Positions 4,338-32,553 of a DNA stretch of 64,000 bases are shown here, one piece after another. Positions within the stretch are counted from its first letter, which is position 1, and the number at the start of each line of letters is the position of its first letter. Under the pieces are notes generated by a model. That model ran no database searches, was not told where the DNA came from, and was given only the letters and a program-made list of their open reading frames with translations. The translations under genes were made by a program, and so were the position numbers. The DNA is from Nocardioides pantholopis (GTDB taxonomy: Bacteria > Actinomycetota > Actinomycetes > Propionibacteriales > Nocardioidaceae): the NCBI RefSeq assembly GCF_003710085.1, contig NZ_CP033324.1:124001-188000 (forward strand), read 5' to 3'.

Positions 4338-5453
4338 GTGCCGAAGCTCGGACGAAGGCCAACGGGTGCGCAGCGCATGCGCCGTGCCCTTCCGACGCTC
4401 GCCATGACCGCCCTGGTCCTGGCGCTGGTGGTGGGCGGCACGGTGAGTCCCACGACCGCCTCCACTGCTAGCGTCGGCGCCACGAAAGCCCCGACGAGCG
4501 CCTCAGGGAAGACCTCCCACGTGTCGACCGCATCGCCCGACGAGCGTCGCAAGAAGAAAAAGAAGAAGAAGCGGGCCCGGCGGCTGGTGGACCGGGTCGA
4601 GTTCGGCGCCTACGTCGACGGGATGACCAACGCTCCCGAGCGTCTGGCCGCCTTCGAGTCGATGGTCCGCACCCCGACCGACATCGCCTCCTACTACTGG
4701 GGGTACGGCGACATCTTCCCGGCCGCGACCGAGCGCGCCTTCGCCCGCGGCGGGACCCGCAAGGTGCTGCTCTCCTGGGACATGGGCCCCACCCGGTTCT
4801 CGGAGTGGACGAGCGGGCAGCACGACGGCTACCTCGACGACCTGGTCAGCGCCGCCCGGGACTACCCGTGGACGGTGTACGTGCGCCCCTGGCCGGAGAT
4901 GAACGGGGACTGGCAGCAGTTCCAGCCGACCGCCGACGGCGATCGCCCCTACGGCGGCACCTACGCGGAGTTCCGCTCGGCCTGGCGCTACCTGGTGACG
5001 TACTTCCGGGCGCGCGGCGTGACCAACCTGCGCTGGGTCTTCAACCCGACCGTGGACGTCTACGCGGGCACCACCCCGGTCGCCAGCATCTGGCCCGGCG
5101 CCGACTACGTCGACGTGCTCGGCATCGACGGCTTCAACTGGGGACAGGACGCGAAGTGGGGACGGTGGAAGTCCTTCCCCGAGCTGTTCACCCCGATGTA
5201 CCGCCGGCTGACCCGGCTGCACCCCACGGCGCCGGTGTGGATCTGCGAGGTCGGCTCGAAGGAGCCGACCCGCGCCGACGGCGCGCCGCGGGACCCCCGG
5301 CACAGCAAGGCCCGGTGGACCAAGGACGCGCTCACCGGGCGCGGCTTCCCGCGGCTGAAGGCGATCGTCTGGTTCCACGCCCGCAAGGAGCGGGATTGGC
5401 GGGTGAACTCCTCGCCGCAGTCGCTGCGGGTGCTGCGCCGGCTGCTCAGGTAG
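4338..5453 (+). CDS. Secreted glycoside hydrolase, GH26-like (endo-mannanase/endoglucanase type)
   Basis: A 371-residue predicted exported glycan hydrolase. The N-terminus has a basic stretch, then a hydrophobic segment (TALVLALVVGGTV, residues about 23-35) typical of a signal peptide, then a strongly basic linker with seven consecutive lysines (nt 4550-4572). The catalytic-domain motifs are VRPWPEMNGDWQQF (acid/base Glu, near residue 190) and VWICEVGSKEP (nucleophile Glu, near residue 300), the two-glutamate layout of GH26 enzymes. GTG 4338 is chosen because GAGG lies 7 bp upstream; ATG 4377 is the alternative. Its 3' end overlaps the convergent sortase gene by 8 bp. Together with the facing synthase operon this suggests processing of a surface glycan (inference). 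Confidence 0.82.
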   Translation: MPKLGRRPTGAQRMRRALPTLAMTALVLALVVGGTVSPTTASTASVGATKAPTSASGKTSHVSTASPDERRKKKKKKKRARRLVDRVEFGAYVDGMTNAPERLAAFESMVRTPTDIASYYWGYGDIFPAATERAFARGGTRKVLLSWDMGPTRFSEWTSGQHDGYLDDLVSAARDYPWTVYVRPWPEMNGDWQQFQPTADGDRPYGGTYAEFRSAWRYLVTYFRARGVTNLRWVFNPTVDVYAGTTPVASIWPGADYVDVLGIDGFNWGQDAKWGRWKSFPELFTPMYRRLTRLHPTAPVWICEVGSKEPTRADGAPRDPRHSKARWTKDALTGRGFPRLKAIVWFHARKERDWRVNSSPQSLRVLRRLLR

Positions 5454-6102
5454 CCGGGGCGCTCCGCGGGTCGACGAGCTCGCCGCGCACGTAGAGCCGG
5501 GCGAGCGAGCCGTACTTCGGCCAGCAGGTGGTCAGCGTCAGCTGGTGGCCGGGCAGCGGGTCGAGGACCCAGTCGGCGTCGTTGTCCACCTTCCGGGGGC
5601 TGGTCGTGAGCCGGTAGGTCCAGGTGCTGGTGCCCTGGGTGATCCGGACCTCGTCGCCGGGGCGCAGCTCCTCGAAGTCGAGGAACGGCGACCCGTGTCC
5701 CGCCCGGTGGCCGGCCAGCGCGACGTTGCCGGCGGCGCCGGGCAGCGGGGTCCCGGCGTAGTGGCCGATCCCGTCGGCGATCACGTCGTCCTCGGTGCCC
5801 TCGAGCACCGCCCACCGCCAGGACTTCCCCAGCCGGGGAATCTCCAGGACGGCGAGCGGACGGCCGTGCTCGACGCCGGCGGCCACCGGCGAAGGTCGGT
5901 TGCGGGTGCTTGCTGCGGCCTGCCCCCCGGCGGCCCCGGCCGTCCCGGCTGCTGCTTGCGTCCCGTCCGCTTCCAGCTGCTCCAGCTGTTCGAGCAGCTC
6001 GGTCTGGGCGCGGGAGGTCTGCAGGCCGGTGACGGCGACGTGCCCGACAGGGACCGCCAGAATCGCGGCGAGCACGATCAGGGCCGCCAGGAGGCGACGC
6101 AT
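5446..6102 (-). CDS. Class E-like sortase (membrane-anchored transpeptidase)
   Basis: A 218-residue sortase. The N-terminal hydrophobic anchor (residues about 3-25) is followed by a short predicted coiled coil rich in Glu/Leu and an Ala/Gly spacer, then the sortase barrel. Catalytic residues are visible: His in LAGHRAGHG (near residue 133), Cys in LTLTTCWPKYG (near 192) and Arg in ARLYVRGEL (near 203). Class E enzymes of Actinobacteria typically cut LAxTG rather than LPxTG, and the gene immediately upstream encodes exactly a LAATG signal. The ATG at 6102 overlaps the stop of that small gene (ATGA), which fixes the start and shows translational coupling. The class assignment is by motif pattern and context. 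Confidence 0.9.
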   Translation of the reverse strand: MRRLLAALIVLAAILAVPVGHVAVTGLQTSRAQTELLEQLEQLEADGTQAAAGTAGAAGGQAAASTRNRPSPVAAGVEHGRPLAVLEIPRLGKSWRWAVLEGTEDDVIADGIGHYAGTPLPGAAGNVALAGHRAGHGSPFLDFEELRPGDEVRITQGTSTWTYRLTTSPRKVDNDADWVLDPLPGHQLTLTTCWPKYGSLARLYVRGELVDPRSAPAT

Positions 6103-6245
6103 CAGTGCAGGCGGGGCAGGATCCGCGCCGCGGCGAGGATGGCGGAGATGATCGCGAACGCGGCCAGGAGCAACCACACCGCGTCGAAGGCGAGGCCCGT
6201 GGCGGCGAGGGCGCCACCCGCGGTGATCGAGCCGTTGTTGTACAT
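6102..6245 (-). CDS. 47-residue LAATG sorting-signal miniprotein, candidate sortase substrate
   Basis: A 47-residue ORF sandwiched between the GT2 synthase (5-bp gap) and the sortase (4-bp ATGA overlap). It reads as a complete cell-wall sorting signal with almost nothing else: 13 residues, then LAATG (residues 14-18), a hydrophobic helix of about 20 residues, and a short tail with two arginines (RILPRLH). There is no separate signal peptide, so the helix would have to insert with the N-terminus outside. Cleavage between Thr and Gly would leave a 17-residue peptide joined to an acceptor. The coding call rests on operon packing and motif match, since it is too short for strong codon evidence. 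Alternatively it may be only a small membrane partner of the synthase. Confidence 0.75.
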   Translation of the reverse strand: MYNNGSITAGGALAATGLAFDAVWLLLAAFAIISAILAAARILPRLH

Positions 6246-6250
6246 CGTTG

Positions 6251-7342
6251 TTACCACTTTCTCTCGGTGCCCAGTGAGGTCTGGGCAAAGGCACGGGCCT
6301 GCACGAACTGCAGGAAGACGTCGAAGGCCATCTCGACGACGATGACGGCGCCGAGCAGCATCTGGCGGGGCCCGCGCGAGCGGACCGTGACCACCCGCTC
6401 GAGCGCGAAGACGCCGGTCAGGGCGAGCCAGAACCAGTGCATCTCCATGCCCAGGATCAGGCCGACGACGAGGCTGGCCAGGTACAGGCCGGTGGCGAGC
6501 ACGCCGAGCGCGCTCAGCGCCTGCCGGCCCCAGTAGCGCCGGGTCACCGGCGTCCAGCCGTAGTCGAGGAGGTTCTCCAGGGCGCCGCGCTTCCAGCGCA
6601 GCCGCTGGTTGGACAGGTCCTTCCAGGTGCACATCACCTCGGTCTCGAGGGTGCACTCGTGGGGCGCGAGGATCCGGTAGCCGAGGTGGAGCAGGGCCAG
6701 CGAGAGCTCGTTGTCCTCGGTGAGGACGTGGACGTCGTAGACCGCGCCCTTCCCGGACCGATCCGGGAGCCAGCCGTCGCGGCGGGCCGTGACGACCTCC
6801 TCGAGGACCGGGATCGGAAAGACCGACGCGGTGCCGGTGAGCACCAGCGCCCGCCCCTTGAGGCGGCGTACGTCGCGCTCGTAGCGGGCGTACTCGTTGC
6901 GCTGGAAGGTGCCGAGCAGCCCGCCGCCCGGCCCGCCGCGGAAGGTCCCGCCCACGCCTCCGAGCGTGGGGTCGGCCAGGTGGCCTCGCGCCACCTCGAG
7001 GAACTGCGGGTCGAGCGCGCAGTCGGCGTCCATGACCAGCACCAGGTGGGTGGGGTCCAGGGTGGGCAGGATCTCGGCGAGCGCCTGGTTCAGCGCGCCG
7101 GCCTTCTTGTGGACGTTGTCGACCGGGAAGAAGACCTCGGCTCCGCGGGACAGGGCGATCTCCGCGGTCCGGTCGGTGCAGTTGTCGGCGACGACGACGA
7201 CGCGCTCCGGGGGATGGGTCTGGCCGGCCAGCGAGTCCAGCGCCGCCCCCAGCGACGCCTCTTCGTTGTGCGCGGGGAGCAGTGCGACCAGCGGGCCGAC
7301 GGTGCGTGCGGTGCCCTCGGCCCGCCTCGTCGTGGTGGTCAT
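6251..7342 (-). CDS. Processive GT2 glycosyltransferase (polysaccharide synthase type)
   Basis: A 363-residue membrane glycosyltransferase. It carries the full signature of processive beta-glycan synthases: LLPAHNEE at the N-terminus, VVADNCTDRTAE (nucleotide binding), VMDADCAL (DxD, near residue 104), VLTEDNELSL (catalytic TED, near 208) and QRLRWKRGALEN (Q(Q/R)xRW, near 247). Two or three transmembrane segments follow (residues about 275-350). Cellulose, hyaluronan and poly-GlcNAc synthases share this layout; the sugar cannot be read from sequence. It heads a three-gene operon with the LAATG miniprotein and the sortase, an association that suggests a wall-linked or processed exopolysaccharide (inference). 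Confidence 0.9.
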   Translation of the reverse strand: MTTTTRRAEGTARTVGPLVALLPAHNEEASLGAALDSLAGQTHPPERVVVVADNCTDRTAEIALSRGAEVFFPVDNVHKKAGALNQALAEILPTLDPTHLVLVMDADCALDPQFLEVARGHLADPTLGGVGGTFRGGPGGGLLGTFQRNEYARYERDVRRLKGRALVLTGTASVFPIPVLEEVVTARRDGWLPDRSGKGAVYDVHVLTEDNELSLALLHLGYRILAPHECTLETEVMCTWKDLSNQRLRWKRGALENLLDYGWTPVTRRYWGRQALSALGVLATGLYLASLVVGLILGMEMHWFWLALTGVFALERVVTVRSRGPRQMLLGAVIVVEMAFDVFLQFVQARAFAQTSLGTERKW

Positions 7343-27114: not shown

Positions 27115-28484
27115 TCCCCACCTGGGCGCAGCTGGTCTACCTCGCCTGCGCGATCGGCTTCGTGCTGGCCCTCAAGGGCCTCGCCGGGCCCCGGACCGCG
27201 CGGGCCGGCAACCTGGTCGGCGCGGCCGCGGCGGTGGTCGCGGTCGTGGTGCCGTTCGGCTACCTCGACCTCGACCACGTCCCGCTGATCCTGGCCGCGA
27301 TCGCGCTCGGGTCTCTGGGCGGCGTGCTGGGCGCCCGCCGCGTCCAGATGACCCAGATGCCGCAGATGGTGGCGCTGTTCAACGGCGTCGGCGGCGGGGC
27401 CGCGGCGCTGGTGGCGCTCCTCGAGCTGGAGCACATGGGCGCCTCGACCGCCGAGTTCGACCTGGCCGCCACCGCGTTCACGGTCGTGGTGGGCTCGGTG
27501 TCGTTCGCCGGGTCCGTGGTCACGTTCGCCAAGCTCCAGGACCTGATGACCTCCCGGCCGATCGTCTTCGCCGGGCTGCCGGTGGCCTTCGGGGTGGCGC
27601 TGCTGGCGACGATCGGGCTCGCGGTCTGGGTGGTGGCCGAGCCCGGCGTACCGACCGGCGTGGGGCTCGCCGTCCTCGGCCTGCTGATCGGGGTGCTGCT
27701 GGTGCTGCCGGTCGGCGGCGCCGACGTACCGATCGTGATCTCGCTGCTCAACGCGTTCACGGGCCTGACCGTCGCGGCGGGCGGCTACGTGCTCGGCAAC
27801 GTGGTGCTGCTGGTCGCCGGCACGCTCGTGGGCGCGGCCGGCACCTTCCTGACCCTGCTGATGGCCCGGGCGATGGGCCGCTCGGTGCCGAACATCCTCT
27901 TCGGCGCGCTGCGCGGCGGCTCGACCCTGGGCGCCGGCACCGCCTCGGACCGGCCGGTGCGCTCGGCGGGGCCGGAGGACGTCGCGATCCTGCTCGGGTA
28001 CGCCGAGCGCGTGATCGTCGTCCCCGGCTACGGCCTCGCGGTCGCCCAGGCCCAGCACACGCTGCGCGAGATCGTCGACGTCCTCGGCGAGCGCGGCACC
28101 CGCGTCGACTACGCGATCCACCCCGTCGCCGGCCGGATGCCCGGCCACATGAACGTGCTGCTCGCCGAGGCCCAGGTGCCCTACGACCAGCTGGTCGAGA
28201 TGGACGACATCAACGGCGAGTTCCCGCACACCGACGTCGTCCTCGTCGTCGGCGCCAACGACGTGGTCAACCCCGCCGCCCGCACCGACCCCGCCGCCCC
28301 GATCTACGGCATGCCGATCCTCGCCGCCGACCAGGCCCGCCAGGTCGTCTTCCTCAAGCGGTCGATGCGCCCCGGCTTCGCCGGCATCGACAACGAGCTG
28401 CTCTTCGACCCGAAGACCACCATGCTCTTCGGTGACGCGAAGGAGTCGCTGGCGAAGTTGTTGGCGGCGCTGAAGGGGTTGTGA
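27111..28484 (+). CDS. pntB: NAD(P) transhydrogenase subunit beta
   Basis: A 457-residue subunit with about eight transmembrane helices (residues 5-260) and a C-terminal NADP(H)-binding domain. Signatures are MPQMVALFNGVGGGAAALVA, VIVVPGYGLAVAQAQ (NADP-binding), HPVAGRMPGHMNVLLAEA, VVGANDVVNPAA, and KRSMRPGFAGIDNELLF at the end. It couples hydride transfer from NADH to NADP+ with inward proton flow. It is the last gene of the operon and marks the left edge of the accessory region. Confidence 0.95.
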   Translation: MIPTWAQLVYLACAIGFVLALKGLAGPRTARAGNLVGAAAAVVAVVVPFGYLDLDHVPLILAAIALGSLGGVLGARRVQMTQMPQMVALFNGVGGGAAALVALLELEHMGASTAEFDLAATAFTVVVGSVSFAGSVVTFAKLQDLMTSRPIVFAGLPVAFGVALLATIGLAVWVVAEPGVPTGVGLAVLGLLIGVLLVLPVGGADVPIVISLLNAFTGLTVAAGGYVLGNVVLLVAGTLVGAAGTFLTLLMARAMGRSVPNILFGALRGGSTLGAGTASDRPVRSAGPEDVAILLGYAERVIVVPGYGLAVAQAQHTLREIVDVLGERGTRVDYAIHPVAGRMPGHMNVLLAEAQVPYDQLVEMDDINGEFPHTDVVLVVGANDVVNPAARTDPAAPIYGMPILAADQARQVVFLKRSMRPGFAGIDNELLFDPKTTMLFGDAKESLAKLLAALKGL

Positions 28485-28576
28485 GTCGGCGTCGTTGGGG
28501 TCGCCCTTCCCGCCCACTATGACGCACCGGGGCTGCAGCCTCGCAGGCTATACGAGGGGTGACTCTGTCGAGGCGC

Positions 28577-29662
28577 TTAAGGCAAATACTCGAAATGCTT
28601 CAAAATGGCGGCCGTTGCATAACCGTCGATGAGCATGTACCTGCGAACGTTCTTGGGTGACGTGGCGTATGTACGCAGCATGTGTTCGACTCTGGAAGTG
28701 ATTGTGTGGCAGTGCTGCACCACAAGAAGGTCTGCAGGGCTTTCGGCGAGGCGTTGAATCTGGTCGCCGTTCTTGCCGAGGTCGGCGATCCGCATCGGGT
28801 GGAACGCAGCAGGACCTTTGAAGGCGAATGCCGTTCGCAGTGGCGTACCGTCAACTGACAGGAACCGCGTCCAGAGGTCGAACTGCTCACCTCCCCAGTC
28901 CTTTGGCACGTCGGACTGCCCGATGATCTCCGCGAACCAATGCTTGACGGCCTCCTCGCCTACGCCGCGCATGAGTTCGAGGTCCGAGTTCTCGCCGCGG
29001 GTGAAGTCGACGCCTTCAAACTGGTCCACCTGCTGGGGCCATACATGTGCGATGTCTCCGACGACGCCGAAGAAGGCCTGGTCACCGGAGGCGACCAGTC
29101 GTTGACCGACAGTGACAGCACGCAAGTTCACAAGGCCGTCATTGACGTCGCGGACGAATGCCAGCATGAACGCCTTGCTCGTACCGGACATCAGGTGTGC
29201 TCCGGTGTCTGAGGTGCAGCGAGAGGCGTTTACCTCTGCCTCAAACCGCAGGTTGGAGTCGGTCGCCAACTTTCCCCAGACCGTCCCCCGGTGGGATGTT
29301 CCGGTGCGTTTGGACCTGTAGTACGCCTCCCCTATCCCACGGAAATGCATGGACTGCTCCACCCAGACCAGTTGTCCCGGAGATGGGCCCGACCCGTGGT
29401 GCAGTTCGTTAAGCGAAGGTACTTCGAGGGCCCGGACCGCCGCAGCCACGGCGTTCTCGAGGATAGACTTAGTCCTCGCTCGCGCGAAGACGTGGCCGGT
29501 GTCAGACAGATCCGATGAGATCTGAGCGCTCAAACTCGGTCCGAGCACCTTCAACACGAGTTCTTGATGAAGGAACCAGGCCTCGAGATCAGTGTCGACT
29601 GTCTGCACTGAGCGATTGTGACAGCGAATCGGCTGAGGACCAAGCCACTCTTGAAAACTCAC
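28577..29662 (-). CDS. Putative PD-(D/E)xK-like protein, second gene of the PHP-ATPase module
   Basis: A 361-residue protein of unknown function in AT-richer DNA. The C-terminal third is the informative part: DWGGEQFDLWTRFLSVDG, then TPLRTAFAFKGPAAF, LGKNGDQIQRLAESPADLLV and YMLIDGYATAA. Asp followed by a strand ending in Phe-Lys-Gly is reminiscent of the PD-(D/E)xK nuclease core with an altered Glu position; this is an inference. It starts with GTG 50 bp after the upstream ATPase gene on the same strand, so the two form an operon. There is no membrane segment. It could be the effector nuclease of a defence pair. Confidence 0.62.
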   Translation of the reverse strand: MSFQEWLGPQPIRCHNRSVQTVDTDLEAWFLHQELVLKVLGPSLSAQISSDLSDTGHVFARARTKSILENAVAAAVRALEVPSLNELHHGSGPSPGQLVWVEQSMHFRGIGEAYYRSKRTGTSHRGTVWGKLATDSNLRFEAEVNASRCTSDTGAHLMSGTSKAFMLAFVRDVNDGLVNLRAVTVGQRLVASGDQAFFGVVGDIAHVWPQQVDQFEGVDFTRGENSDLELMRGVGEEAVKHWFAEIIGQSDVPKDWGGEQFDLWTRFLSVDGTPLRTAFAFKGPAAFHPMRIADLGKNGDQIQRLAESPADLLVVQHCHTITSRVEHMLRTYATSPKNVRRYMLIDGYATAAILKHFEYLP

Positions 29663-29712
29663 TATGGCCCCGCGACTTCCTACGGGACTGCCGCCAAGCA
29701 GCGAAACCCCAG

Positions 29713-32553
29713 TCAGAAACCGTACTTGGCCTTGCGGAGGCGGAACGCTTTCTCTCCGCCCTCCATGACAGCGGTGATCTGATCGCGGACGGCAGCTACG
29801 TCAATCGCACCCTGTTCCTTGATATGTCCCGCCGACTGGTCTCCTGCCGTCACGTACGCACATACAAGTACAAGATCCGCGTCGCCATTTACGACCAGAT
29901 TGGCATTGTGACTTGAAAACAACAGCTGTCGACCAGCCTTTGCGGCCCAGATCTTAGTCACGATGTCCTGGACGGTGTCGCTATCAAGGTCGTCCTCAGG
30001 CTGATCAATGACGAGCGGCGTTCCCCCTTGAGCGAGGAGCGTCGCAAGCAACGCCGACGCCTGCTGGCCAGCGGAGGCAGAGCCGAAGGGAATGTACTCA
30101 CCCTCTTTGGCTCGGTACTCGAACTCGGGAAAGTCGGTCAACTCAGTCAAAGAAAGATCAAGCCAACCGTCCGGCGTAAGTTTTGGGACCACTCGCTTTT
30201 GGTCGGCCGGGCCGAACCCCAGGCGTGACAGCGTCGGAGTGTCTTCGGACTTGATCTCGGCATCGGGCTCTTGCAGCATCACCCACTCCAACTCATCCAG
30301 GATCAGCTCCCAGGAAGTAGTCGGCGAAGTATCGCTGCCAAGGGCGTCGAACAACGCGTCGACCTTGTTGCTCCGAACGTTGGAGCCAGCGATGAGGCCC
30401 CTGAACCGGGCCTGCACGTCGTCGAAGCCCCTACCCGAAGAGAGGCGTGCTCGAATCAAGCCGCCGGACGAATCCGAAAGTCGAGAGCACTGAGCTGAGA
30501 GTGCGGTTATCCGCTGGTCCCTGGTGGATGTGAGCTCGGTACGAAGTTCGCGGTGTCGCTGGATTGGGTCTCCCAGCTCGTCTCGGTCCCTGCCATGCCT
30601 TTGGGCCGACGAGCTGGCCGCTCGTTGTAGCTCCTCAAGCTTCGCCAGCTCGACAAGTTTGGCCTGGTGGGCTGACGACCGGCCCTTGACCGCCACGTAA
30701 GTCGCCTCGTACTCATCCAGGCGGGCCCGGAGCGTCCGACTTGCTGTATCCGCAGCACCCCCGGCGGTGAGGGTCCGTTCCAGGCCGAGAGCCAGGGCCT
30801 CCAACCCGGCACGGACTGCGTTGAGTGCCGCGCCGGCGGTTGTGACGTACTGCTCGACCTCATGACCGATACCAGCGGGCACGTCGGTCGGTTTCGCAAT
30901 GTCGTCGACTGACGCAGTCAGGTGCTCAATCAGCGAGGCCAGTTCAGCCTGTCCATCAAGAAGTCGCTGCGTCCATGCCGCGTGGGAAGAGGCGACGGCG
31001 TCATGGGCCGCCTTCTCGTCAAGGATCTTTCGATCGTCCTCAGACAGGCCAGCCAGTCCGTCTCGCAGGGCCTGAGCCTGTTCCGCCAACGACTTCGCCC
31101 GAAGCTCGGACCGTTGAATCTCGCTACTGAGAATCCGGTGCCTTTGCAACGTGCCGTAGTTTTCTCGAAGACGTCCGGATATCTCATCTTGACGCCGCGA
31201 GATTTCGTCCAACTCCTGCTGGATCGGAGAGGTCACAAACCGGAGGAGCTCGTCTACTCGGATCGCGACGCTGCTCAGTTGCTTCTGGCTATAGGCCTGG
31301 ATCGGCAAGAGGCTCTGAATGGCGCTCTCGCGAACCTTCTCGAAGTCGCCAGATCCGACCCTGAGTTGCACAGTGCCGTCACCTGCGTCCCGGCGTACGA
31401 CATGAGTGATGCCGTTTATGACGCAGTGCACTTCAACATGCGCTCCGAGCGGCTTCAGTGTGGCTTCGATCAAGCGGCGCTGCCGGACCCGCGGGTCAGC
31501 CACCTCGTCATCCTCCGTGGACTTTGCGGGTTGATCGCACAGGGCCCAGCGAAGATAGTCGAGAACTGTGGACTTGCCCGTTCCACGGCCGCCGATCAAC
31601 GCGGTGTATTGCGGGTTAAGAGCTACATCCACCCGTCCCATAAACTTGCTCTGCGAAACGACCACCCGCGAGATCCAAATGTTGGGCAACGCCGGTTCAA
31701 CCTGCGCGACTCGAGACTCCTGCGCAAGGCAGGCCTGGCGGATCGCTTCGGCGGTTGGCGCTGACCACTTCACCCATGAGGCGTGCGCTCCCAGGGTCGA
31801 GAAATCTGCTTTTCGTGAATCGGACGTCTGAAATATCGCAACCTTTTTTGATCCCCATGCTGGAACTAGGCCGTCGAGGATACGTTTCGTCCCCACCGCG
31901 TTTTTCGCGGCAAACTTGTCGAACGATCCGTCGACGTAACCGCCCACGGGAATCATGTCCCTGTACTTTCCTTGAAACTGTTCCCGCATAAGCGTCCGGT
32001 ACCCACTCGGCGTCACGTTCGGTAAAATGATGTACCGACCTTTGAGCCATTGGTTCTTGTCGAGTTTCGCATGCAACTCGTTCAGGTCGCCCGAGTCGGT
32101 GAGATTCTGAGTTTGCGGAATGGCGTCCAGGGTTGGATCTACGGGCTCACAATGGAGCGCCTTCAATACATCGTCGAGGCGCTCAACCGGAAAGTCAGCG
32201 TCGAGGATCATGATCGCCTGACACGGGACTGTTAGTGAAAGCTCTAGCGCCGGAAAGACCACGAGGCGTTGCCGGTACGGAACGGGCTCACCAACCGCGC
32301 CCACCTCTTCGGCAGCGGCTTGCTTGATGTGTGGGAAGTATGCGAAGTCATGATGATCTGATATCGCGACTGCGTGTAGGCCCTTCGCACGTGCGGCCGC
32401 AACGAAGTTGCCGGCCCAAGCATCGCGCTCCTCTAGCGTCGGCCTGGGCCCGTCCCACTGGGTATCGCGAGGTGTATGGACCTGGAAGTCAGCGCGGTAG
32501 AAGTGCCCGCCGTTGTCGGCGAGCAGGCCGGCCCGCGCAGAATCCTCCACCAT
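29713..32553 (-). CDS. PHP-domain / SMC-like ATPase (TrlF-type)
   Basis: A 946-residue protein with two parts. The N-terminal PHP phosphoesterase-like domain shows YRADFQVHTPRDTQW (HxH region altered to Gln-Val-His) and HAVAISDHHDFAYF (metal-binding HDHHD-like), then FPALELSL. From near residue 325 an ABC/SMC-type ATPase begins: YTALIGGRGTGKSTVLDYLRW (Walker A). A long coiled coil follows (about residues 465-740), and then FGSASAGQQASALLATLLA (signature), PLVIDQPEDDLDS (Walker B) and LLFSSHNANLVVNGD (H-loop). NCBI calls this layout TrlF-family. GAGAGGA precedes ATG 32553. Codon use is clearly less GC-rich than in flanking genes, a sign of transfer. Confidence 0.85.
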   Translation of the reverse strand: MVEDSARAGLLADNGGHFYRADFQVHTPRDTQWDGPRPTLEERDAWAGNFVAAARAKGLHAVAISDHHDFAYFPHIKQAAAEEVGAVGEPVPYRQRLVVFPALELSLTVPCQAIMILDADFPVERLDDVLKALHCEPVDPTLDAIPQTQNLTDSGDLNELHAKLDKNQWLKGRYIILPNVTPSGYRTLMREQFQGKYRDMIPVGGYVDGSFDKFAAKNAVGTKRILDGLVPAWGSKKVAIFQTSDSRKADFSTLGAHASWVKWSAPTAEAIRQACLAQESRVAQVEPALPNIWISRVVVSQSKFMGRVDVALNPQYTALIGGRGTGKSTVLDYLRWALCDQPAKSTEDDEVADPRVRQRRLIEATLKPLGAHVEVHCVINGITHVVRRDAGDGTVQLRVGSGDFEKVRESAIQSLLPIQAYSQKQLSSVAIRVDELLRFVTSPIQQELDEISRRQDEISGRLRENYGTLQRHRILSSEIQRSELRAKSLAEQAQALRDGLAGLSEDDRKILDEKAAHDAVASSHAAWTQRLLDGQAELASLIEHLTASVDDIAKPTDVPAGIGHEVEQYVTTAGAALNAVRAGLEALALGLERTLTAGGAADTASRTLRARLDEYEATYVAVKGRSSAHQAKLVELAKLEELQRAASSSAQRHGRDRDELGDPIQRHRELRTELTSTRDQRITALSAQCSRLSDSSGGLIRARLSSGRGFDDVQARFRGLIAGSNVRSNKVDALFDALGSDTSPTTSWELILDELEWVMLQEPDAEIKSEDTPTLSRLGFGPADQKRVVPKLTPDGWLDLSLTELTDFPEFEYRAKEGEYIPFGSASAGQQASALLATLLAQGGTPLVIDQPEDDLDSDTVQDIVTKIWAAKAGRQLLFSSHNANLVVNGDADLVLVCAYVTAGDQSAGHIKEQGAIDVAAVRDQITAVMEGGEKAFRLRKAKYGF

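Follow-up and report, generated by a model that had tools for sequence, protein, structure and literature searches.

A conserved Nocardioides locus joins a GT2 synthase, a bare-signal micropeptide, a class E-like sortase and a GH26-like hydrolase, and may fasten a glycan or its synthase to the cell wall

The closest described systems come from two sides. PMC12854382 names the exosortase G (XrtG) system alongside glycosyltransferase family 2 (GT2) enzymes and a sorting-signal protein. On the sortase side, known class E sortases are transpeptidases that anchor proteins to the cell wall; they favour LAxTG signals, Tyr229 in the beta3/beta4 loop of SrtE1 has been proposed to read the alanine, and SrtE1 is also able to recognise proline at that position (PMC5148588). 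Here we describe a locus of Nocardioides pantholopis in which a sortase, a sorting signal and a GT2 synthase stand side by side. The window, i.e., the whole stretch of DNA analysed, is 64 kb (positions 124001-188000) of a 4.04-Mb single-contig genome (label G000:C1), and a single locus within it holds a GT2 synthase, a 47-aa micropeptide, a class E-like sortase and a glycoside hydrolase family 26 (GH26)-like enzyme. Relatives keep the four genes together, and the set may tether a glycan-making machine, or what that machine makes, to the wall. We read them, with moderate confidence, as one functional module in which the sortase processes the micropeptide as a subunit and thereby fixes the glycan or the synthase complex to the wall. 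The features of the locus are as follows, in window coordinates.

6251..7342, minus strand: processive-type GT2 synthase, 363 aa (PF00535 at 67.6 bits, PF13641 at 63.6 bits)
6102..6245, minus strand: single-pass micropeptide, 47 aa, MYNNGSITAGGALAATGLAFDAVWLLLAAFAIISAILAAARILPRLH (13 homologues aligned)
6195..6209, minus strand: LAATG sorting-type motif, residues 13-17 of the micropeptide
5446..6102, minus strand: class E-like sortase, 218 aa, ATG at 6102, with an N-terminal membrane helix predicted from sequence
4338..5453, plus strand: secreted GH26-like glycosidase, 371 aa, lichenase-type; GTG at 4338, with ATG at 4377 also possible

The minus-strand genes run in the order synthase, micropeptide, sortase. 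The initial annotation had described them as a tight operon, and the 5-bp gap that it reported between the synthase and micropeptide genes is there; the ATGA overlap that it gave for the micropeptide and sortase genes is in fact TGATG, with 1 bp shared, and 4-bp overlaps of these two genes occur in five orthologous loci. The 3′ end of the hydrolase gene does lie inside the sortase gene as claimed, by 8 bp (5446-5453). A possible alternative start for the micropeptide is a GTG four codons upstream (6257). The G+C content of the locus is 0.720 versus 0.722 for the window, and third-position G+C is 0.92-0.96 in each of its genes, as is typical of real genes here. A promoter-like consensus was looked for at the locus and none was found.

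Relatives of the synthase are present at E 1e-60 or better in 76 of 215 Nocardioides genomes. By bit score we call those above 480 bits type A (10 genomes, the window included) and those at about 399-416 bits type A′ (three places), the rest scoring 334 bits or less; 20 loci together with the window and locus L035 were annotated by tblastn. All ten type-A loci hold the micropeptide, the sortase and the GH26 gene, the micropeptide adjoining the GT2 gene and the sortase adjoining the micropeptide in every one. Named carriers include N. ungokensis, N. kribbensis, N. terrigena, N. oceani and N. sediminis. The proposal of one conserved system thus holds for the ten orthologues, each with a small open reading frame (ORF) carrying LA[AVM]TG; loci that lack the sortase or the motif are absent among them and do occur among paralogues. 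The expected conservation of gene order is borne out for the sortase and fails for the GH26 gene, which converges on the sortase in seven type-A loci and lies upstream of, and divergent from, the GT2 gene in three.

Profile searches draw the same boundary. Across 341 genomes of the family, the ten type-A sortases score 315-346 bits, followed by G202 (265 bits) and G300, of a sister genus (259 bits), and then a gap to 187 bits and below; in G202 the end of the contig truncates the sortase gene, and a GH26 gene lies beside the fragment. A GH26 protein search of 209 genus genomes returned the type-A ten and G202 at 410 bits or more, two relatives at about 355 bits (G030, G074) and all others at 115 bits or less. 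Those two were considered as members of the system and set aside, no GT2, micropeptide or sortase being recognised by eye in 12 kb. The micropeptide profile gave 14 strong places in 12 of the 341 genomes, all beside a type-A or type-A′ GT2; 13 of these are sequences from which the profile was built, G224 is the only addition, and nine weak rows (E 7.5e-4 or worse) stand outside the count. Three genes that flank the locus in the window accompany it, within 11-kb stretches, in only one of the nine other type-A loci; the module thus stays together in different contexts.

The small ORF at the centre of the system is present as reported. Its product consists of a 12-residue N-tail from MYNN, the LAATG motif, one membrane helix and a basic tail, RILPRLH, and has no match in Pfam or NCBIfam. 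Invariant in all 13 type A/A′ rows are M1, Y2, L13, A14, G17, W24, L27, A28, F30, A31, A38, R41 and P44, with residue 16 being T in 12 rows and S in one. Among the ten type-A rows, the ratio of nonsynonymous to synonymous differences per site (pN/pS) ranges over 0.12-0.30 in the four closest pairs out of 45, a sign of purifying selection, and climbs to 1.06 in the most distant. A chance LAxTG is ruled out by this conservation and selection. A mechanical filter for such ORFs gave one match in the 64-kb window and five in 829 kb of control loci, one of them in the 241-kb actinobacterial part; three of the five are C-termini of long secreted LPxTG-type proteins. The filter is imperfect, as it missed real cases at L229 and L230 that a looser one found.

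Motif, hydrophobic helix and basic tail follow one another throughout the 13-row alignment in the layout of a sorting signal. The nine examples computed (five of them type A) carry no net charge before the cut and have a basic C-tail. Membrane orientation is governed by the positive-inside rule, so an uncharged N-part with a basic C-tail should place the motif outside, where a sortase works. There is no evident signal peptide, nor any exported domain ahead of the motif; with only 12 residues in front of it, the micropeptide is not an ordinary sortase substrate protein.

The sortase itself scores 93.5 bits against Pfam Sortase (cut-off 26.6), and class E is its best NCBIfam class at a score under the curated cut-off, hence "class E-like", a description in which the initial annotation proved right. 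His132, Cys193, Arg202 and Tyr115 are invariant in all ten type-A sortases. Tyr115, the Y of GHY, is the equivalent of SrtE1 Tyr229 when counted back from Ala249 in the alignment to 5cuw, and this invariant residue, proposed to read the alanine of LAxTG, is paired with alanine at position P3 in all ten type-A micropeptides. The solved structures closest to the sortase profile are 5go5 and 5go6, with SrtE1 (5cuw) a few places lower. In Pfam and NCBIfam the window sortase matches sortase families only, and no exosortase-family transpeptidase was found at the locus. Three further sortase genes lie elsewhere in the genome.

For the synthase, the DxD (as DAD), TED and QRLRW motifs noted earlier are all in place, and D105, D107, T208-E209-D210, Q246, R247, R249 and W250 are invariant in 13 of 13 homologues. 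The GT2 domain (67.6 bits versus a Pfam cut-off of 23.3) is predicted to be cytosolic and to be followed by about three C-terminal membrane helices, with no N-terminal membrane helix, per the sequence and a weak model. Domain, DxD, TED, QxxRW and membrane helices together mark a processive GT2. In NCBIfam the protein falls below all cut-offs, with PgaC, EpsU and the XrtP-associated glycosyltransferase closest, and it does not reach the PgaC/IcaA equivalog cut-off (50.6 versus 422.3 bits). A fold search placed hyaluronan synthases first, from a weak model with a mean predicted local distance difference test (pLDDT) score of 64.5.

The claim of a GH26-like hydrolase is supported by Pfam (PF02156, 31.2 bits versus a cut-off of 20.2) and can be made narrower. 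E187 and E304, which we take to be the catalytic glutamate pair of GH26, are invariant in all ten orthologues and align with those of CtLic26A. Searched against solved structures, the GH26 profile retrieved this enzyme, endoglucanase H of Clostridium thermocellum, at 160 bits and mannanases at 42 bits or less, and the AlphaFold model (mean pLDDT 76) matched CtLic26A at E ~5e-22, the next group being at 3e-10. Nearest sequence and nearest structure both narrow the assignment towards a lichenase-like enzyme and point to mixed-linkage beta-glucan as the candidate substrate. Between export signal and catalytic domain (window 4518-4590) lies a lysine-rich linker, RRKKKKKKKRARR, possibly a wall-binding or anionic-polymer-binding tract; the nearest orthologue (L062) has no such lysine run.

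Beyond the orthologues, the pairing of a GT2 with a small partner recurs in several forms. In type A′, a GT2 and a micropeptide occur in G000, G085 and G002 with the motifs LAMSG, LALTG and LALTG, respectively. The first of these is the window genome's own second GT2 (L035:6880-8136; G000:C1:1945885-1947126), which is 56% identical to the first and has a 57-aa LAMSG micropeptide and no sortase alongside. At L243 (G224:C12) a type-A′-like GT2 is apparently broken, being matched in two pieces, and the micropeptide persists downstream. In type B, a partner of 69-103 aa starts -4 to +1 bases from the GT2 stop in all 12 loci viewed. It has one helix with a short stretch similar to that of the micropeptide; its homology to the micropeptide is suggestive (hhalign E 0.027, probability 1.8%, from an alignment of 11 of the 12 loci plus L078), and we do not treat it as proven. 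No partner was recognised in the type-B-related loci L075, L079 and L081. Type C comprises L076 and L077, where an LPNTG protein of 135 or 118 aa follows the GT2 and no sortase was found in the stretch; these proteins (L076:5512-5919, L077:5974-6330) have a second membrane segment past the basic stretch, unlike ordinary sorting signals.

A second clade of synthases shows the same association. In G300 (Nocardioidaceae bacterium YX3bin2, L089/L242) the order is a micropeptide beginning MYGGLPNTG, a PgaC-like GT2 that is 33% identical to the window's (167-residue match) and a sortase that is 58% identical (130-residue match). About 1.3 kb further on, the opposite strand encodes a secreted GH18 (98.3 bits). 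A transposase-resembling ORF, recognised by eye, lies between the sortase and GH18 genes, and tandem ESPRTAKSPRTAK-type repeats occur in the linker of the sortase (L089:5813-5950). Searching 246 class genomes with the G300 GT2 gave five genomes at E 1e-40 or better; in four of these loci LAYTG, LATTG, LPGTG and LPGTG stand near the start of the ORF adjoining the GT2 gene, the two LPGTG ORFs being 132 and 112 aa long with additional hydrophobic stretches, and in the fifth (G442) no such ORF was recognised. In the Streptomyces-like family of G522, second-clade GT2s occur in 10 of 200 genomes, and all ten loci have a micropeptide of 35-66 residues with L[AP]x[T/I/L]G after 3-6 residues (LAYTG, LAHTG, LPKTG three times, LATTG, LPFIG twice, LPLIG and LPFLG). 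A sortase is nearby in four of the ten (6.6-12-kb stretches), and the three of these four that were scanned are class E above the NCBIfam cut-off (198-214 bits). At L234 and L236 the sortase and GT2 genes diverge, and the micropeptide lies on the strand opposite the GT2 gene.

An 11-row profile of second-clade micropeptides found 48 places in 45 of 345 class genomes, led by three seed genomes and then an LPYTG segment in G501 (E 3e-7). Of the 30 places read by eye, three are the seeds and one is G501; about 20 others are sorting signals that belong to long proteins, and six are chance or unreadable matches. Since the profile recovers ordinary surface-protein sorting signals, the second-clade micropeptides look like real sorting signals themselves, a result that is partly expected because the profile rows contain the motif. 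The G501 segment is N-terminal (MY...LPYTG) in an exosortase-family protein (L274:6614-7312; TIGR04178 at 29.3 bits, cut-off 23), possibly a fusion of signal and transpeptidase; its best specific matches are XrtS, XrtR and XrtP, all below cut-off, and its gene directly precedes an XrtP-type glycosyltransferase gene (315 bits, below the cut-off of 520). Sortase loci from Chloroflexi, Dormibacterota, Gemmatimonadota and Jiangella were considered as further copies and rejected. With the window's GT2 as query, tblastn found no GT2 in 72 of 80 loci, at one of them (L082) because the contig ends, many being on short contigs and other GT2 types being liable to escape; the other eight are seven Nocardioides loci and L089. 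LPxTG-like ORFs at L112, L117 and L160 turned out to be C-termini of long secreted proteins, and the one at L101 looks like chance. Elsewhere in the window, G+C falls to 0.615 at 28001-32000 versus about 0.72 window-wide, possibly marking an acquired segment.

In a maximum-likelihood tree of 38 GT2s, built from tblastn-anchored frames, types A, A′, B and C are split with strong support from the second clade. Type A forms one clade (100/98), as do the four loci whose motifs end in IG or LG (98/92), and L274 and L241 sit on long branches with unsure placement. As sortase-linked loci are present in both deep clades, the micropeptide habit is widespread, and sortase linkage was gained or retained on at least two occasions.

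In the reading that we favour, the synthase would assemble at the membrane, and export, a beta-glycan that is probably a beta-glucan, of mixed linkage or another kind. The micropeptide would be its dedicated single-helix subunit, with the uncharged N-tail outside and the basic tail inside, and the class E-like sortase, probably co-transcribed, would cut the class E sorting signal between Thr16 and Gly17. The freed 16-residue N-terminal peptide, MYNNGSITAGGALAAT, would then be passed to an amine of the peptidoglycan precursor, and via that peptide the nascent glycan or the synthase complex would be fixed to the wall, with GH26 trimming or releasing glucan outside. Judged from the sequences, processing of the micropeptide at T/G by the sortase and a complex of micropeptide and synthase are the most likely parts; covalent wall anchoring of the glycan is possible. 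The data establish that the set is conserved, linked and coding, along with its catalytic and specificity residues and the layout of its sorting signal; a shared transcript, the membrane topology, the complex, the cut, the acceptor and any bond between glycan and peptide are inferred. The gain may be a wall-tethered glycan, a tethered synthase or a switch, and sequence cannot decide among these.

The link between motif and enzyme can be put in numbers. In a 28-row table the micropeptide has TG in 15 of 15 rows with an adjacent sortase versus 8 of 13 without (Fisher p 0.013), and in second-clade loci alone in 5 of 5 versus 2 of 6 (p 0.061), in tests that ignore kinship, the ten type-A rows being one lineage. 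Motif and sortase labels were entered by hand, and "no sortase" means none by profile in stretches of 6.6-15 kb. Outside the table are the type-B loci, L241, L243 (broken GT2), L274 (exosortase fusion), and L073, L074, L075, L078, L079, L080 and L081 (type-B partner or none recognised).

Just as the neglect of kinship tells against our reading, so do several other observations. The best NCBIfam score of the window sortase, 146.2 bits, misses the class E cut-off of 160. No sortase was found in the fetched flanks of the type-A′ loci, one of which has LAMSG, and the type-B partners (~70 aa) lack L[AP]xTG in all 12 loci viewed; as the synthase-micropeptide pair can stand without an adjacent sortase, the primary partner of the small ORF is the synthase, with the sortase joining them only in some lineages. 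In the second clade, LPFIG, LPFIG, LPLIG and LPFLG are not sortable by known rules, these four forming one clade and so perhaps reflecting one event, and at L241 no micropeptide was recognised in about 5 kb before and 0.4 kb after the GT2 gene. Tyr2 is not universal, being H or Q in the IG/LG group, and other micropeptides start MTQNGS, MGYGHS, MNNAG, MTAG or MAMHV. Position P3 is proline in four of the five sortase-linked second-clade loci, and the LAxTG-type Tyr is kept in L234, L236 and L242 despite this proline context, with Leu only in L231 (read by eye).

Part of this list fits a purely structural micropeptide, i.e., a split-off helix that completes a helix-poor synthase, with L[AP]xxG as a packing motif and the sortase serving other proteins. 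We regard this as possible but rather unlikely. It would account for the missing N-terminal membrane helix of the window synthase, for micropeptides that persist with IG/LG or beside no sortase, and for the motif-less one-helix partner of type B. What it leaves unexplained is the company that the sortase keeps: at the level of the ten orthologues it is found, in the 341 family genomes, only beside a GT2 gene or, at a contig edge, beside GH26; its linkage recurs in the second GT2 clade; every sortase-linked row has TG; and the enzyme has the Tyr that matches LAxTG.

A doubtful but more far-reaching proposal is that the micropeptide is a glycan primer-anchor. Its N-terminus, with Tyr2 and, in type A, Asn/Thr next to it, would be glycosylated in the cytosol by the GT2. 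The chain would leave the cell while it grows, its reducing end carrying the peptide, and the sortase cut at T/G would weld a glycopeptide of 7-24 residues to peptidoglycan. The MY start of all 13 type A/A′ rows and several second-clade rows speaks for this, as does the lack of any other cargo on the micropeptide; H, Q, T, N or G at position 2 and the IG/LG group weaken it.

The sortase might instead be an off-switch or release factor, its cut stopping the synthase or freeing the polymer with water or a soluble amine as acceptor and no anchoring, which we think improbable. Such a role suits a freed peptide of 7-24 residues with no cargo domain (the nine computed examples), the constant adjacency of micropeptide and GT2 in type A and a secreted lichenase-type enzyme in the same locus. 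Nothing in the analysis points to hydrolysis, and the known class E sortases are wall-anchoring transpeptidases (PMC5148588). A chance neighbourhood, with a general class E-like sortase and a GH26 gene merely lying beside a synthase operon, is very improbable, for the opposite strand and variable position of GH26 and its two solitary relatives are outweighed by complete co-occurrence in ten genomes of differing contexts, in a genome that has three further sortase genes elsewhere.

The familiar role of sortases is to attach proteins. The candidate substrate here consists solely of the tag, one membrane helix and roughly a dozen residues, and it is linked to a polysaccharide synthase in two or more deep GT2 clades of Actinomycetes. 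Should the processing prove real, sortases would have a part in displaying glycans or in controlling their synthases. Were the primer-anchor proposal true, a polysaccharide would be covalently anchored to the wall by a sortase and would need neither a lipid carrier nor an LytR-CpsA-Psr (LCP) ligase. The system is small and occurs in environmental bacteria, and such genes, often under 50 codons, are easily overlooked by annotation.

We found no description of a system of sortase, GT2 and bare-signal micropeptide in titles and abstract openings of the open-licence literature, an absence that is weak as evidence. What is already recorded are loci of exosortase (XrtG, XrtP), GT2 and sorting signal; what is apparently new is a sortase-based counterpart with a bare-signal micropeptide. 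XrtG of Lactiplantibacillus, a CTERM protein and exosortase with two XrtG-associated glycosyltransferases (PMC12854382), and XrtP with its glycosyltransferase (NCBIfam NF053846), the second system of this closest kind, resemble the window in that a single locus combines a transpeptidase of the membrane with a sorting-signal protein and glycosyltransferases of GT2 type. The window differs in having a sortase-fold enzyme, a 47-residue domainless signal, a short one-piece synthase and a lichenase.

Chaplins are secreted and carry an exported domain ahead of their sorting signal. Similar to Streptomyces coelicolor SrtE1/SrtE2 with their chaplins, the window has an LAxTG signal, the catalytic residues and the Tyr229 equivalent; unlike chaplins, its micropeptide has only 12 residues before the signal and no evident signal peptide, and unlike SrtE1/SrtE2, its sortase is dedicated to a synthase locus and scores below the NCBIfam class E cut-off. 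HasA, PgaC and BcsA share DxD, TED and QxxRW and, as in PgaC with its small partner PgaD, the combination of a synthase with a small membrane partner; the window synthase differs from them in lacking N-terminal helices, and its partner is single-pass and carries a sorting motif. CtLic26A, the best match in both sequence and structure, shares the GH26 fold and both presumed catalytic glutamates with the window hydrolase, which is about 30% identical to it and has PE in place of the acid/base motif HE.

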